From a virus: a stretch of DNA of 33,896 bases. A model generated the notes under the pieces. The model had not been told where the DNA came from and ran no database searches. It saw only the letters and a program-made list of their open reading frames with translations. This document shows, piece by piece, positions 22,087-29,789 of this stretch. The position numbers and the translations under genes were made by a program. The DNA is taken from the IMG/VR virus record IMGVR_UViG_3300024520_000292, positions 1 through 33,896 of that record, one strand, 5' to 3'. Numbering within the stretch: the stretch's first letter is position 1; each line of letters begins with the position of its first letter.

Positions 22087-22312
22087 CTACGGATTCGATA
22101 AATTCATTCCATCCCTTCTCAGTCCACCAGACATTCAAGACAACCATTGACTCATCTATTACCCACGGTTTATCTAGAAGAGTTCTGATTGTTGTGAATG
22201 GTTCAAATATGGGTACTGATACTACCTTCTCTACTTGTTCACGTATAAAACTGTTAGATGCTAAACCAATAGGTTTATCTTTTGCTATCTCATATAAATC
22301 AGATAAAGTCAT
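22046..22312 (-). CDS. Small protein of unknown function next to DNA polymerase
   Basis: The 88-residue product is mixed helix and strand (LSDLYEIAKDKPIGLASNSFIREQVEKVVSV up to the midpoint, then WVIDESMVVLNVWWTEKGW). It overlaps the polymerase stop by four bases, so translation is coupled. Because of its place it may be a polymerase accessory factor, but no motif supports this. Confidence 0.5.
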   Translation of the reverse strand: MTLSDLYEIAKDKPIGLASNSFIREQVEKVVSVPIFEPFTTIRTLLDKPWVIDESMVVLNVWWTEKGWNEFIESVDENSFAKGTEEAP

Positions 22313-24252
22313 ATCAAACTTGATTGTGTTACTGTAAACATCTCTACTATCTTGTTTGCTTGTCCTATATAAAATCTTCTATCTATTATATCAAGACTAC
22401 CCATCTTCTTCTTATAAGCTTTTAGATCATTAACTAAAAAGACATTGTGATCTTTTACCATCTGTACTCTAGAACCATCAGCTTTATATTTACTGAGAAT
22501 ACCACCATGACTTGTCTTACAAACAAAATATCTATTGATCTTCTGTACAGGCTCACGGACTACTACTCTACCTTCTATATCAAGCTTCTCATGAAATACT
22601 TGACTAAACATCTTACCTACACCTTGAGCTTTACAGAAATCTAAGACATCTTCATGATCATTTATCGTATCCTCTATCTGTATACCATATACAAAGTAGT
22701 TATGAAGAGCAAGACTTATTATAGGCGAATCAAATCCTTTATGTAAACCTAAAATTACTGTTGGATGAATAAGATTATCCTTGTCTAGATCTCCCTTACC
22801 TTTAACCTTACCATCTGTTTTGATAGCTAGATAGTTGTTTACATCTCGAATAGCGAAAGTCTCGAAGAGTGAGAAGTCTAAGACAAACTTATGTCTTCTG
22901 GTCCAACCTCTACACATTGTATAGAAAAGATCTCGTTGATCTTTATAGACTTTAGCTACAATTCCATCAGTATTAGCATAAAGGACTGTAATCCCTTTCA
23001 TCTCCAAAGCTTCAATAAGCATCAACAAGAACAACTGTCCATTGATTGTAATCCTATAGAGGGCCATAGGATCATACAACCAAGAGTGTTCATAATTAAA
23101 CTTACCAAATACACTGTTAACAGTAACCTTATTCGACTCACTAGTAACCACATCTCCTTTCTTCTTAGCTGCCAATCTCTCATCTGTCATATCTCCAACT
23201 AGATCAAGAAAAGAAGGCTCTAAGTGAGCTGGTCTTATCTGTAAGTTCAACATTATATTGGGATAATATGAACTCACATCTGCATCTATTATGTCATATC
23301 CTTTCTTACTTTGATAGACTACAGGTTTGGGCTTCTTCTTCTTACCTACTACAACATAGTGTACAGAATGAAGACCACCTTTAGCTACATCATAATAAGT
23401 ATCATTTATCCTTACCTTTCTTCCCCAAGATTGAGTAGTATTGATATGGTCTCCCTTTATATCTATCAAGAATCTCTGTAATCCCGGAGTCTTGAACTCT
23501 ATCTCTTCTCCCACAATGTCAGACATGCTCATCCATTCTCTCGGAGTTCTATCATTTCTAAAACTCCAGACATTCTGCTTAGTTATCTTACTATAAGCAG
23601 GCTCAAGGATTCTACTACTCATCGTACTATTGCTATCAGACAATAGATTCACACCATACTTAACAGACATCTTAGCTCTCATATTTATATCCTCACGGAG
23701 AGCTTTGTATAAGTGTTCTGTTATATTTACATCGTTCTTACAATACCTCAACATTGAGGGACCATCTGCTAATTGAACTGTTGCTTCTACTGGTAAAGGT
23801 AGATCAAGAATCAAAGGCCACTTCATATTGATAGCGGCCTTCTTAAGAGATATACGCCTGTCATTCACTTGCGTAATACTCAGTAGATCTATACTTCTGA
23901 AAGAAACAGGTAGTCTAGTCCAGTTACCATAGGTGATAATTGAACTGGTTGCTTTCTTTAATTGAGTTGCAGCATATTTTGCACCCTTCTCAAGATATAG
24001 TTCTCTATTCTTGAATATCAAAGCAACTAACTGGTCATCGAAGTGACGATTGTTAAACCCAACAAAGAACCTACCCTTAACAGAGAAGAATTGTATTAGT
24101 TCTTCTACTTCATTTGCTACAAAGGCACCTCCCCCTACATGAAAAATCCTGAAGTAGTGGAACTTGTCATCTTTAAGTGTCTTGGCAATAAGCAGGAAGA
24201 AATTCTTAAACACTTCTATATCATAGAAGCATATATCGTGCTGTTTTGCCAT
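22309..24252 (-). CDS. Family B DNA polymerase with 3'-5' exonuclease
   Basis: The 647-residue polymerase begins with an intact proofreading domain: ExoI FYDIEVF (Asp11, Glu13), ExoII GFNNRHFDD (66-73) and ExoIII YCKNDVN (170-176). The KGGLHS segment (291-296) takes the YxGG-type hinge position. Motif A is DADVSSYYP (323-331), motif B KVTVNSVFG (375-383), and motif C YANTDG (425-430). Cellular B enzymes have DTDS in motif C; here the first Asp is Asn427, and the Asp that binds both catalytic metals (Asp429) is kept. It is short for the family and has only about 45 residues between motifs A and B. No Shine-Dalgarno is near the ATG, but AAAGGAG lies 33 bases upstream in an open frame. Confidence 0.87.
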   Translation of the reverse strand: MAKQHDICFYDIEVFKNFFLLIAKTLKDDKFHYFRIFHVGGGAFVANEVEELIQFFSVKGRFFVGFNNRHFDDQLVALIFKNRELYLEKGAKYAATQLKKATSSIITYGNWTRLPVSFRSIDLLSITQVNDRRISLKKAAINMKWPLILDLPLPVEATVQLADGPSMLRYCKNDVNITEHLYKALREDINMRAKMSVKYGVNLLSDSNSTMSSRILEPAYSKITKQNVWSFRNDRTPREWMSMSDIVGEEIEFKTPGLQRFLIDIKGDHINTTQSWGRKVRINDTYYDVAKGGLHSVHYVVVGKKKKPKPVVYQSKKGYDIIDADVSSYYPNIMLNLQIRPAHLEPSFLDLVGDMTDERLAAKKKGDVVTSESNKVTVNSVFGKFNYEHSWLYDPMALYRITINGQLFLLMLIEALEMKGITVLYANTDGIVAKVYKDQRDLFYTMCRGWTRRHKFVLDFSLFETFAIRDVNNYLAIKTDGKVKGKGDLDKDNLIHPTVILGLHKGFDSPIISLALHNYFVYGIQIEDTINDHEDVLDFCKAQGVGKMFSQVFHEKLDIEGRVVVREPVQKINRYFVCKTSHGGILSKYKADGSRVQMVKDHNVFLVNDLKAYKKKMGSLDIIDRRFYIGQANKIVEMFTVTQSSLI

Positions 24253-24336
24253 AGTTATCGTTACTTTTTTTAGTTCTTGTGTTATCTCCTTTAGTCCCTT
24301 ATATTCTTCCAGACCATCCTGTGTGGTGCTTTTCGT

Positions 24337-24380
24337 AGGGGTCTAGCGGTTTTAAGGGTTCCGCTAGACCCCTTATTTTT
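24337..24380 (+). terminator. Perfect terminator hairpin facing away from the genes
   Basis: AGGGGTCTAGCGG (24337-24349) and CCGCTAGACCCCT (24361-24373) make a perfect 13-bp stem with an 11-base loop, followed on the plus strand by TATTTTT. All nearby genes are on the minus strand, where no U-tract follows the hairpin. It therefore looks like the end of an unannotated plus-strand transcript, or a block to antisense transcription. In the polymerase mRNA the same sequence would be a 5'-leader hairpin. Confidence 0.78.
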
Positions 24381-24395
24381 GTGTCTAGGAGATTA

Positions 24396-24424
24396 AATAT
24401 ATAAAACTTTTTGGAATAAAACAA
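24396..24424 (-). promoter_or_regulatory. Possible promoter for DNA polymerase
   Basis: On the minus strand TTGTTT (24424-24419) and TATATT (24401-24396) are separated by 17 bases in an A/T-rich stretch. Transcription would begin near 24390 and give a leader of about 140 bases that includes the hairpin at 24337-24373. The -35 box is poor (three of six), so this is moderate evidence. The rest of 24253-24463 holds no gene. Confidence 0.5.
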
Positions 24425-24463
24425 TACTATTTTCTTATAGATTCCAGTTTCATCGGACACCTA

Positions 24464-26378: not shown

Positions 26379-26605
26379 ATCATTCTTTATTTAAAGGGGG
26401 AGTAAACCACAGTCCCTAGCACCGGTGTTCTGTTAAATATACAGACCCACACAGTTTCCTACGATAGAATCCACCTTCATTTAATCTATCATAGTTGTTT
26501 TAGCCCACCCAGAGGCAATTGGGTGGACACTACTAGACAGTACAACGACTGTAGAGAGTAGGGCTAGCACTTTTTGTACTGTTTGGATACTCTCTCCCCG
26601 GCTCT
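26379..26605 (-). other. Non-coding gap with interleaved inverted repeats
   Basis: No credible gene lies here. ACAGTAC (26537-26543) can pair with GTACTGT (26576-26582). AGAGAGTA (26553-26560) can pair with TACTCTCT (26588-26595). Because the two stems interleave, they form a pseudoknot topology or exclude each other. A competing local stem ACAGT/ACTGT (26537-26541, 26548-26552) adds a third option. CCACCCA and TGGGTGG (26505-26511, 26520-26526) form a separate hairpin. No U-tract follows any of them. It may be a leader for 26043-26378 or a small RNA; I saw no clear promoter. Confidence 0.45.
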
Positions 26606-26889: not shown

Positions 26890-27375
26890 TTAACCTCTAG
26901 GCCAGTAAATATAAATATCAAGATCAGCTAACTTTGAACTAAGACAAGCTTCTGTAATCTCACATAACAAAATTGACCACTTCCCCCTCATAATGCCTGC
27001 ACCTAATGCTGGAATCCCAACACTATGGATAGCATCTGATCTTAGTTGCATGTCTTCCAACCTTGCAACAAAAGCAGGAAGTGTTCTTCGTACATTGTCA
27101 TATACTTGTTTTCTCTCCTGATAGAGTTCTCGAAGTGATCCTACGGTTGGGAAATTGATGATGTGAATACCCGTATCTCGATCTTGAAATGAATGTACAC
27201 TACCAATCTGTAGCTTCCCTGCTTTACAGATTTGTCTGTAAGCATCATACATTCGTGGATATCGTACAGCAAACATCTTAGCTAGTCCAGCACCCATTAC
27301 ACCATCACAATTAACAGCATTAACAAGTACATCGTGACCTCCAGCAAACATGTCACCTTTTACAATATGAATCAT
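26890..27375 (-). CDS. Macrodomain protein (DarG/TARG1-like ADP-ribose hydrolase fold)
   Basis: The whole 161-residue protein is one macrodomain. LVNAVNCDGVMGAGLAKMF (about 17-35) is the ADP-ribose-binding loop, IHIINFPTVGS follows the middle strand, and VGIPALGAGIMRGKW is the second phosphate loop. This pattern is closest to the DarG antitoxin and TARG1, which remove ADP-ribose from DNA or proteins. In those enzymes a catalytic Lys follows the NFPT-like segment; here the residue is Val. The Asp/Glu usually present after the GxG loop is not obvious. It may bind rather than hydrolyse ADP-ribose. Phage macrodomains could reverse host defences such as DarTG. Ribosome site GAGGA is well placed. 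Confidence 0.85.
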   Translation of the reverse strand: MIHIVKGDMFAGGHDVLVNAVNCDGVMGAGLAKMFAVRYPRMYDAYRQICKAGKLQIGSVHSFQDRDTGIHIINFPTVGSLRELYQERKQVYDNVRRTLPAFVARLEDMQLRSDAIHSVGIPALGAGIMRGKWSILLCEITEACLSSKLADLDIYIYWPRG

Positions 27376-27384
27376 CTTTATTCC

Positions 27385-27594
27385 TCATCTAAGTCGTTTA
27401 AATCTACACAGATTAAGTTGAATAAGTCTTTGAGCTTCACCCTCATCTATCATCTCTCCAATAACCTTATCACCTGCACTAATAATATTTGCTCTTATGA
27501 GTCTTATATGAGCTTCTAGAGGAGACATCTCATTTACTTGTACAAGTAAGGGAAGCTCTTCTCGTGGGTTATTAAGCTTTAACCAAATAGTCAT
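27385..27594 (-). CDS. Small protein of unknown function
   Basis: The 69-residue product is mixed: WLKLNNPREELPLLVQVNE, then a helix (LEAHIRLIRANI), a GDKVIGEMIDEGEAQRLIQL stretch and a basic end (CRFKRLR). Its start overlaps the preceding stop by one base (TAATG), and it ends nine bases before the macrodomain ATG. Family unknown. Confidence 0.5.
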   Translation of the reverse strand: MTIWLKLNNPREELPLLVQVNEMSPLEAHIRLIRANIISAGDKVIGEMIDEGEAQRLIQLNLCRFKRLR

Positions 27595-27851
27595 TAATTA
27601 TTTTGTATTGTTAAATACATATGGACTTCTTCCTCATAATCGAATAACTCTCCTACCACTTCCCAATCATCAAATATCTTTCCAATTTCAAACTGTTTAT
27701 CTTCAGGCTTAATATCTTCAGTAAATCCAACAAGAACTCCCCTTGTCAATGTACTTTTTTTAGAAAAGGCTAATACTATCTCTCCTTTTCTATTTACTTG
27801 TAATTTAGGATAATCATTTCCTTGTAAACGTGTATGTAGTATTGTTTTCAT
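27594..27851 (-). CDS. Small protein of unknown function downstream of the structured RNA
   Basis: The 85-residue protein looks beta-rich: YPKLQVNRKGEIVLAFSKK, then TRGVLVGFTEDI, then an acidic FDDWEVVGELFDYEEEVHMYL. It has no strong ribosome site. The structured non-coding stretch 27866-28144 lies immediately upstream, so that RNA could be its leader. No family recognised. Confidence 0.5.
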   Translation of the reverse strand: MKTILHTRLQGNDYPKLQVNRKGEIVLAFSKKSTLTRGVLVGFTEDIKPEDKQFEIGKIFDDWEVVGELFDYEEEVHMYLTIQNN

Positions 27852-27865
27852 AGTATTGAGTTAAA

Positions 27866-28144
27866 TCTGGGCCACTTGCTAACCGAAGTTTTCGTGGTGT
27901 TGATCTGTCTCCTCACCTCATAGAAAGAACAGATTAGCTCCAACCCAGAATATCTTTTTGTTGAAGGACACAATGCGGTGTCTCTACTCACCGCCACGCC
28001 ACAAATCCCGCCTGCTTCATAGCCATCGGAGATCCTTAGAGGTTTCAGTCAACGGATAAGCGTTGTTCTCCTGTGCTCCACAGACTGCGTTAATTCGCTC
28101 TTTCGACAGGACTATATCTGTGCCCCGCGTATGAGTGTGTCCTT
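27866..28144 (-). ncRNA. Candidate structured non-coding RNA (two domains)
   Basis: Read on the minus strand, two closed domains can form. Domain 1 is closed by a perfect 9-bp helix, bases 28136-28144 with 27964-27972. It contains hairpins GCGGTG/CACCGC (27975-27980, 27989-27994) and CAACG/CGTTG (28050-28054, 28061-28065), the latter inside a GGAGA/TCTCC helix (28028-28032, 28067-28071). Two alternative helices share CACAG (28079-28083). Domain 2 is closed by TCTGGG/CCCAGA (27866-27871, 27944-27949) with ATCTGT/ACAGAT (27903-27908, 27929-27934) and CGAA/TTCG (27884-27894) arms. G+C is 52% over 27961-28140 against about one third in the gene next door. It has no coding frame and lies beside the tRNA. 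Confidence 0.5.
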
Positions 28145-28358
28145 ATCCTTTAGTGTCCTCTCCACATGAGTAGTTTACATACTGAGGCACATCTGGAATT
28201 GATGTGAACTTACCTTTTCTGGTACCAACAAATACAGCGTTAATAGTTATGTTCTCAGTCCAGTAATCTTCACTAAACTGTTTGTGACCAATAGTGATAA
28301 CTACCTTATCTCCATCATTTCTTACTGTTACGTTCTCACCTTCTGTTTGTATATTCAT
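28143..28358 (-). CDS. Small beta-rich protein of unknown function
   Basis: The 71-residue protein alternates charged and hydrophobic residues (VTVRNDGDKVVITIGHKQF ... NITINAVFVGT), suggesting a small beta-sandwich. It lies between the tRNA gene and the structured non-coding stretch, and its stop codon falls inside the first helix of that RNA. Unknown function. Confidence 0.5.
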   Translation of the reverse strand: MNIQTEGENVTVRNDGDKVVITIGHKQFSEDYWTENITINAVFVGTRKGKFTSIPDVPQYVNYSCGEDTKG

Positions 28359-28374
28359 TTTCTACTATGTTTAG

Positions 28375-28448
28375 TGGACCCGACAGGATTTGAACCTGTG
28401 ACCGTTTGATTATGAGTCAAGTGCTCTAACCAACTGAGCTACGGGTCC
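28375..28448 (-). tRNA. tRNA with CAU anticodon (elongator Met, or Ile2)
   Basis: A full cloverleaf is visible on the minus strand. The acceptor is GGACCCG/CGGGTCC, the D-arm GCTC/GAGC with AGTTGGTTA loop, the anticodon loop CTCATAA, and the T-arm ACAGG-TTCAAAT-CCTGT with discriminator A. The anticodon stem has one C-A mismatch at its top pair (27-43). The first pair is G-C, which argues against initiator tRNA. A CAU anticodon means elongator Met, or Ile if the C is modified to lysidine. CCA is not encoded. It sits between two small genes with only a few spacer bases, so it is processed from their transcript. Confidence 0.95.
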
Positions 28449-28451
28449 TAC

Positions 28452-28817
28452 CTATGAATCTGCATCTGTCCAATAAAGTCCACATTTACTACAAGTAGAA
28501 ACTACAACTTCATTTTCATATCCCTTCGTATGTGGACTATCCTTCTCATAATGATGTACATGATTTACATTCTCCTCAGTACCACACCTCCAACAAACAC
28601 CTTGAAGTTGTAATAATTTTCTAAGTCTTTTTAATTCTCTTTGAAAAACAGATACTATATGGACTTCTCCAGTAGTTGCATAATTAGGAAAGGTATCATC
28701 ATAGATCTTTAAAATCTCTCTGAAGTTTTTCTGATTTGTTTTAATTAACTTTTCTAGTCTCTCCTTTTCCCATTTCGGAAGCTTTACATAAACTGTTGTG
28801 TCTTTTTCTTCACTCAT
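28452..28817 (-). CDS. Small Cys/His zinc-binding protein (HNH-like spacing)
   Basis: The ATG at 28817 is chosen because it overlaps the previous stop in the 8-base ATGAGTGA arrangement seen repeatedly here; a GTG at 28856 would add 13 residues. The product begins with helices (KLPKWEKERLEKLIKTNQKN). It ends with a Cys/His domain: CWRCG, then HVHHYEKD, then N.VVVSTCSKCG. The spacing C..C - HHY - C..C resembles zinc-bound HNH folds, but the catalytic arrangement is incomplete, so I would not call it a nuclease. Confidence 0.55.
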   Translation of the reverse strand: MSEEKDTTVYVKLPKWEKERLEKLIKTNQKNFREILKIYDDTFPNYATTGEVHIVSVFQRELKRLRKLLQLQGVCWRCGTEENVNHVHHYEKDSPHTKGYENEVVVSTCSKCGLYWTDADS

Positions 28818-29016
28818 CTTTAATTCGATATAAGAATGTAACTGTACAACCTTCACTTACATGATTAATTCTATCACTACCTATGTCTTTAAAGATCCAT
28901 GAGTCACCAGTGGCACAGGGAATATGTAAAACCTCTGCCTCCTTACAAAGCGTATGTTGACTACCATGAAAATTCACTGCTACCACATCACCTTCTTTTA
29001 TTCCATCACTACACAT
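28810..29016 (-). CDS. Small conserved-looking phage protein
   Basis: The 68-residue product reads GIKEGDVVAVNFHGSQHTLC, then EVLHIPCATGDSWIF, then SEGCTVTFLYRI. It is a compact beta-barrel-like sequence that I recall as widespread among phage hypothetical proteins without a known role. Three Cys are spread across it. It starts at an ATG preceded by AACCAAACTCAAAG, one of the repeated 14-base boxes, and overlaps the upstream gene by eight bases. Confidence 0.6.
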   Translation of the reverse strand: MCSDGIKEGDVVAVNFHGSQHTLCKEAEVLHIPCATGDSWIFKDIGSDRINHVSEGCTVTFLYRIKDE

Positions 29017-29449
29017 CTTTGAGTTTGGTTAGAAGATATTCGACAAGTTCTTTTGGACCGAACATTACATCGACACCGTTATCCAGCCCAATCATTTCCT
29101 GTGCCTCACGTATGTCGGCTTTCATTTGTTCATTCTCGGTTTGTAGTCGTTCTCGGTCTTCGCAACAATCAGTTGCGACTATCGTCCAATCACGTTCTGC
29201 CTTTCTTGCACGGTCAACTTCAGTCCGCAGGCGTTCGATCTTAGCATTCCTAACTTCTATCATGTCGTTCCTGCTTTCTACTGCACCTTTCCATAAAGTC
29301 GCTTCTGCTTCTGCTTCTGCTTCCTCCAGATTGGCCCGTAGGCGGGCGATCTCGGCGCAGTCAAGCGGATCATGGGCTACACGTATTGGATAATCGGGCC
29401 TGTGAAATTTTGTATTCACGCCGCATTTTGGACATGGTAAGTCACTCAT
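29009..29449 (-). CDS. Zinc-ribbon plus coiled-coil protein
   Basis: The 146-residue product opens with a CPKCG knuckle (5-9) and a later DCAEIARLR. It then runs as a long coiled coil (about 32-130), mostly Glu, Ala, Arg and Leu in heptad-like spacing. A perfect hexamer repeat at 29301-29324 encodes the EAEAEA part. Its high G+C contrasts with neighbours and suggests acquisition or duplication. The start overlaps the previous gene by eight bases (ATGAGTGA) and has the AACC box at -14. Role unknown; adaptor or scaffolding would fit. Confidence 0.6.
   Translation of the reverse strand: MSDLPCPKCGVNTKFHRPDYPIRVAHDPLDCAEIARLRANLEEAEAEAEATLWKGAVESRNDMIEVRNAKIERLRTEVDRARKAERDWTIVATDCCEDRERLQTENEQMKADIREAQEMIGLDNGVDVMFGPKELVEYLLTKLKDV
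29017..29030 (-). repeat. AACC start box at 29016
   Basis: AACCAAACTCAAAG directly precedes the ATG of 28810-29016. Its AACC begins at -14. Member of a family of six boxes at 29.0-31.0 kb. Confidence 0.6.
29301..29324. repeat. Hexanucleotide repeat in a coiled-coil gene
   Basis: Three exact copies of gcttct and one gcttcc lie in tandem, encoding alternating Glu and Ala on the minus strand. Being six bases long, length changes would keep the frame and only alter coiled-coil length. Confidence 0.85.
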
Positions 29450-29789
29450 AGCCGGGTCCGGTTATGGGCGTGATTGCTTCGCCGCCCAATTCAATTCGTT
29501 CAGCGTTCCAAGACGTGATCCGGTCTATAACGATCTGAATGTCGCGCTCGGACTTGTAGTTGAATCCGCATAGTTCAAAGACCCGCTGTAGATCGCCCCG
29601 CAGGCGCTCGATCTCGGCGTCTTTTGCGCTGATTTCAGCAACGGCTTCACGTAACCAATCGTGAAGTTCGTCAGGGCTTGCCATGTCAATTTGATCCGGT
29701 ATCTCACTCATCTTCGGGTCTGGTTCGTCATCACCCGGAGACCATTGTTGTTGTTCCTCTGCTGTTGGTGGTTCATTATATCTTGGCAT
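29442..29789 (-). CDS. G+C-rich coiled-coil protein
   Basis: The 115-residue product has a proline/acid-rich N-terminus and then a coiled-coil stretch (about 45-75, EAVAEISAKDAEIERLRGDL), with a C-terminal mixed region. The AEIERLR phrase resembles the AEIARLR and AKIERLR phrases of the downstream gene 29009-29449. An internal ATG at 29711 (residue 27) carries the same 14-base box as the outer start, so two start points, or a fusion of a short leader ORF to an older gene, are plausible. G+C is high. Ends GPGYE with stop overlapping the next ATG. Confidence 0.55.
   Translation of the reverse strand: MPRYNEPPTAEEQQQWSPGDDEPDPKMSEIPDQIDMASPDELHDWLREAVAEISAKDAEIERLRGDLQRVFELCGFNYKSERDIQIVIDRITSWNAERIELGGEAITPITGPGYE
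29450..29463 (-). repeat. AACC start box at 29449
   Basis: AACCGGACCCGGCT directly precedes the ATG of 29009-29449; AACC begins at -14. It also codes for the C-terminus of the upstream gene (TGPGYE). Confidence 0.65.
29712..29725 (-). repeat. AACC start box at internal ATG 29711
   Basis: AACCAGACCCGAAG directly precedes an in-frame internal ATGAGTGAG of gene 29442-29789. It shares ten of 14 bases with the box at 29450-29463. Confidence 0.65.

Follow-up and report, generated by a model that had tools for sequence, protein, structure and literature searches.

The window, i.e., the whole 33,896-nucleotide stretch of the virus record IMGVR_UViG_3300024520_000292, contains a minus-strand run of genes in which a 291-nt gap (27852-28142) separates two minus-strand ORFs. 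The order of genes on this strand is a 134-aa ORF (weakly HNH/zinc-ribbon-like), tRNA-Met, a 71-aa ORF, the gap, an 85-aa ORF, a 69-aa ORF, and a macro-domain protein. The gap, its immediate neighbors and the two domains that were proposed to fold within it are as follows.

28374-28448, minus strand: tRNA-Met (CAT), detected by ARAGORN and by Rfam RF00005 with 74.8 bits
28143-28358, minus strand: 71-aa ORF between tRNA-Met and the gap, in-frame codon log-odds 0.30
27852-28142, minus strand: non-coding, G+C-rich gap, candidate small RNA or spacer, defined by the ORF list, codon log-odds and G+C content
27964-28144, minus strand: proposed domain 1, with the perfect 9-bp closing helix AAGGACACA/TGTGTCCTT from the stem list; fold z -1.92
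27866-27949, minus strand: proposed domain 2, a long imperfect hairpin closed by TCTGGG/CCCAGA; fold z -1.71
27594-27851, minus strand: 85-aa ORF directly downstream of the gap, in-frame codon log-odds 0.31

The gap is the largest in the window, in a gene cluster that is otherwise compact and A+T-rich. Its G+C content is 0.481, whereas the window as a whole has 0.383 and its coding sequence 0.382; just 2.8% of 291-nt tiles reach this value, and among the gaps of at least 60 nt in the window it is the most G+C-rich, the next one being at 0.436. No ORF of at least 60 aa with a start codon lies inside the gap (the longest listed has 49 aa), the longest stop-to-stop stretch is 66 codons, and none of the six frames stays open across it. 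The codon log-odds in the six frames are near zero (-0.16 to 0.10; small genes in the window mostly score 0.2-0.5), and no protein remnant is recognizable by eye in any of them. The gap is flanked by codirectional genes and is a real non-coding, G+C-rich segment, as described in an earlier sequence-only reading, which had named protein coding as one of the findings that would speak against its interpretation.

The same reading placed the gap next to a phage tRNA. The tRNA-Met gene is real (about 50% G+C) but lies 231 nt upstream, with the 71-aa ORF in between. There is no convincing family match for the 71-aa ORF and no family for the 85-aa ORF, and no protein relatives of either were found in viral contigs. 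The stop codon of the 71-aa ORF overlaps the 9-bp helix of domain 1, and the gap stops exactly where the start codon of the 85-aa ORF begins. The tRNA-Met gene and the genes flanking the gap are all on one strand, with short distances between them, and a search of the region 27300-29100 yielded no promoter-like site (the scan covers the sigma-70 type only) and no terminator-like site, which fits read-through transcription. The macro-domain (ADP-ribose binding) protein (26890-27375, minus strand) belongs to this operon as well, its gene being the second one downstream of the 85-aa ORF.

Proposed helices and fold statistics

Both closing helices that had been claimed for the minus strand, the perfect 9-bp one (28136-28144 with 27964-27972) and the 6-bp one (27944-27949 with 27866-27871), are present exactly at these positions, and domain 1 additionally contains a 6-bp hairpin, GCGGTG/CACCGC, at 27975-27994. 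When the gap is modeled alone, the predicted pair probabilities are about 0.73-1.0 for the 9-bp helix and 0.91-1.0 for the 6-bp closing helix. When the model is extended by about 150 nt of transcript on either flank, the probability of the 9-bp helix falls to about 0.36; a second copy of AGGACAC, located upstream at 28153-28159, is able to pair with the 3' arm of this helix. The smaller hairpins of the gap persist in the model once the flanks are added, with the hairpin 27866-27949 holding up best among the helices in this setting (P of about 0.99).

Comparison with dinucleotide shuffles gives a z-score of -1.55 for the minus strand of the gap, with 16 of 200 shuffles folding equally well. Across the tests, the minus-strand values range from -1.4 to -1.9, short of the fold significance by which a new structured RNA class would be recognized. 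Neither domain folded singly on the minus strand reaches -2; the plus strand of the gap folds slightly better than the minus strand (z -1.91), and domain 2 on the plus strand has a z of -2.64. Among same-length minus-strand tiles of the window (n=84), 31% have an equal or lower z. A Watson-Crick stem of at least 9 bp is present in 8% of the gap shuffles, and stems of at least 6 bp are as numerous as in the gap in 12%. A candidate H-type pseudoknot in the gap, with CACAGA/TCTGTG interleaved with TCCTGT/ACAGGA (6+6 bp), was rejected as evidence of structure, as shuffles contain such an arrangement in 22% of cases and tiles in 42%. The upstream tRNA-Met has a z of -3.2, so the statistic is able to detect real RNA structure in this window, although a pseudoknotted or tertiary-stabilized RNA could be missed by fold energy. 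The folding of the gap is at chance level. Given that shuffles and window tiles match it, the helices are no evidence of a structured RNA: the coordinates given in the sequence-only reading hold, but the significance attached to them does not.

Known RNA families and relatives of the locus

The claim that the gap resembles no known RNA is upheld by an Rfam 15 search, in which even permissive filters and a limit of E 10 yield no credible match. The gathering and permissive scans together return the tRNA, an antisense-of-tRNA match and a chance match to sR40 at E 2.3. This result argues against tmRNA, group I intron, GOLLD, ROOL, HEARO, RNase P and other curated classes. For the GOLLD and ROOL covariance models in particular, there is no match to the gap either in cmscan with gathering thresholds or at E up to 10. 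Like GOLLD and ROOL, the gap is phage-encoded, non-coding and close to a tRNA gene, and GOLLD env-38 was initially discovered downstream of a Met-tRNA (PMC12286853). However, GOLLD members are often longer than 800 nt, with a 3' region spanning residues 421-833 (PMC12286853). A member would be expected to measure at least about 800 nt, including a conserved 3' half of some 400 nt, whereas the gap has just 291 nt and, unlike both families, no repeated, covarying structure on record. Two further candidates were rejected. The segment GATATAGTCC resembles the P7 strand of group I introns, but the strand order is wrong and permissive scans give no RF00028 match; for the second, a TnpB/IscB guide RNA, the ORFs adjacent to the gap are unlike TnpB or IscB, and there is no match to any family in Rfam.

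No homologue of the gap was detected by blastn with distant settings against phages and plasmids, or by scanning viral and GTDB genome contigs for exact words from its core. A lone 17-mer match was discarded, as it falls within an unrelated 414-aa ORF with 27% register identity. The gap searched as DNA against 50 whole related virus records retrieves just chance pieces of 14-24 nt; single-sequence covariance models of both domains find no match in these records and, across 33 sources, match the window alone (the positive control).

The relatives themselves are distant. The B-family DNA polymerase encoded at 22309-24252 has its best annotated matches mostly in crAss-like phages (27-30% identity), and the affinity of the DnaB-like helicase in the window is also mostly crAss-like. 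No close relatives of the polymerase were found: an alignment-based search retained 80 loci with a best segment of at most about 39% identity, and for 21 loci in GTDB contigs the identity is at most 33%. This phage lacks a close relative in the searched collections, and the failure to find gap homologues is hardly informative about function either way.

Interpretation of the gap

The reading that we tentatively place first is that the gap is an orphan, phage-specific small RNA or an untranslated processing segment that would be transcribed together with the tRNA-Met operon; the transcription of the gap, the fold as drawn and any function are what we infer from the DNA. One minus-strand transcript would run through tRNA-Met and the 71-aa gene, across the 291-nt segment and on through the 85-aa gene; the segment would fold at least locally, into the 6-bp hairpin at 27975-27994 and the long hairpin at 27866-27949, and might be retained either as a small RNA or as an untranslated part of the operon transcript with a role in processing or stability. 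In A+T-rich genomes, structured RNA genes show raised G+C, and a small RNA or functional UTR is plausible in view of the raised G+C of the gap amid compactly arranged genes. The gap has a likeness to orphan small RNAs and to untranslated stretches of phage operons, namely as a single-genome non-coding segment in a codirectional cluster; the gap is known from DNA alone. Against the small RNA stand the chance-level fold, the instability of the 9-bp helix with flanks, and the absence of homologues in the searched collections.

Ranking closely behind is the possibility that the gap is a functionless spacer or decayed, horizontally acquired DNA (a lost gene or an inserted stretch of higher G+C with degraded reading frames), the helices being chance complementarities. 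The chance-level fold statistics and the failure to find homologues in phages, plasmids, and viral and genome contigs are compatible with this explanation, as are the intact genes at about 29200-29700, with 47-54% G+C, equal to or above that of the gap, given which G+C-rich imports may exist in this region. Decay is, however, at odds with the lack of a protein remnant or coding bias in the six frames, and phage genomes tend towards loss of useless DNA. Rather unlikely is a cis-acting leader of the 85-aa and following genes, e.g., a structure for translation control or RNase processing that parts the tRNA from the mRNA portion of the transcript: the coincidence of the gap end with the start codon and the sturdiness of the 3'-most hairpin with flanks would suit such a leader, but the gap is far longer than the other gaps of the operon, and the riboswitch and leader families have no match in the Rfam scans. 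A DNA-level element, e.g., a replication origin or packaging site, could account for the G+C-rich inverted repeats but is highly improbable, considering that direct repeats (iterons) are absent and the GC-skew trend is unchanged at the gap. A comparison with tmRNA (RF00023) is pertinent because genes above the Rfam cut-off are carried by 9 of the 50 related records found via the DNA polymerase. Nevertheless, a divergent or permuted tmRNA is hardly credible: the gap shows no tmRNA or tRNA-like match (E up to 10, permissive filters), ARAGORN is negative, and inspection of the sequence reveals neither a tRNA-like domain nor a tag frame ending Ala-Ala-stop, with the missing T-arm largely ruling out this identity.

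That the gap is the first member of a new class of phage structured RNA, located downstream of a tRNA and belonging to an unsampled lineage whose DNA polymerase is crAss-like, is very unlikely; non-coding status and base composition are all the positive evidence for it, and calling a new class takes more than one example. If a conserved structured RNA were present, it would extend the small set of ornate RNAs that phages encode near tRNA genes. The gap shows that long complementary arms arise easily within a 300-nt stretch, and homologues are required before a G+C-rich phage gap is named a structured RNA.

Other RNA candidates in the window and in related records

Two other gaps of the window, both on the minus strand, fold well. 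The three long gaps of the window show no similarity to each other. The gap 26379-26605 is non-coding (227 nt, 43.6% G+C), with a closed multibranch fold (z -3.5) that just 1 of 200 shuffles equals; Rfam gives no match up to E 2, and a search of phages yields no credible relative. By predicted energy it is a better structured-RNA candidate than 27852-28142. The gap 24253-24463, upstream of the DNA polymerase gene, contains a perfect 13-bp hairpin, GGGGTCTAGCGG...CCGCTAGACCCC, and is the strongest tile in the window (fold z -5.4). No T-run directly follows this hairpin, which is possibly a processing or termination hairpin.

Some of the tmRNAs in the virus contigs that encode related DNA polymerases of the crAss-like type have unusually long tags. 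The genes above the Rfam cut-off are the following.

L020, 3807-4200: tmRNA
L027, 339-724: tmRNA
L030, 1746-2118: tmRNA
L093-L101: tmRNA

A partial group I intron match (RF00028), just above the cut-off, is found in a distant relative (L010, 8050-8169). In L030, RT-18 RNA (RF03021) is matched just above its cut-off at 2892-2968, about 770 nt downstream of the tmRNA.
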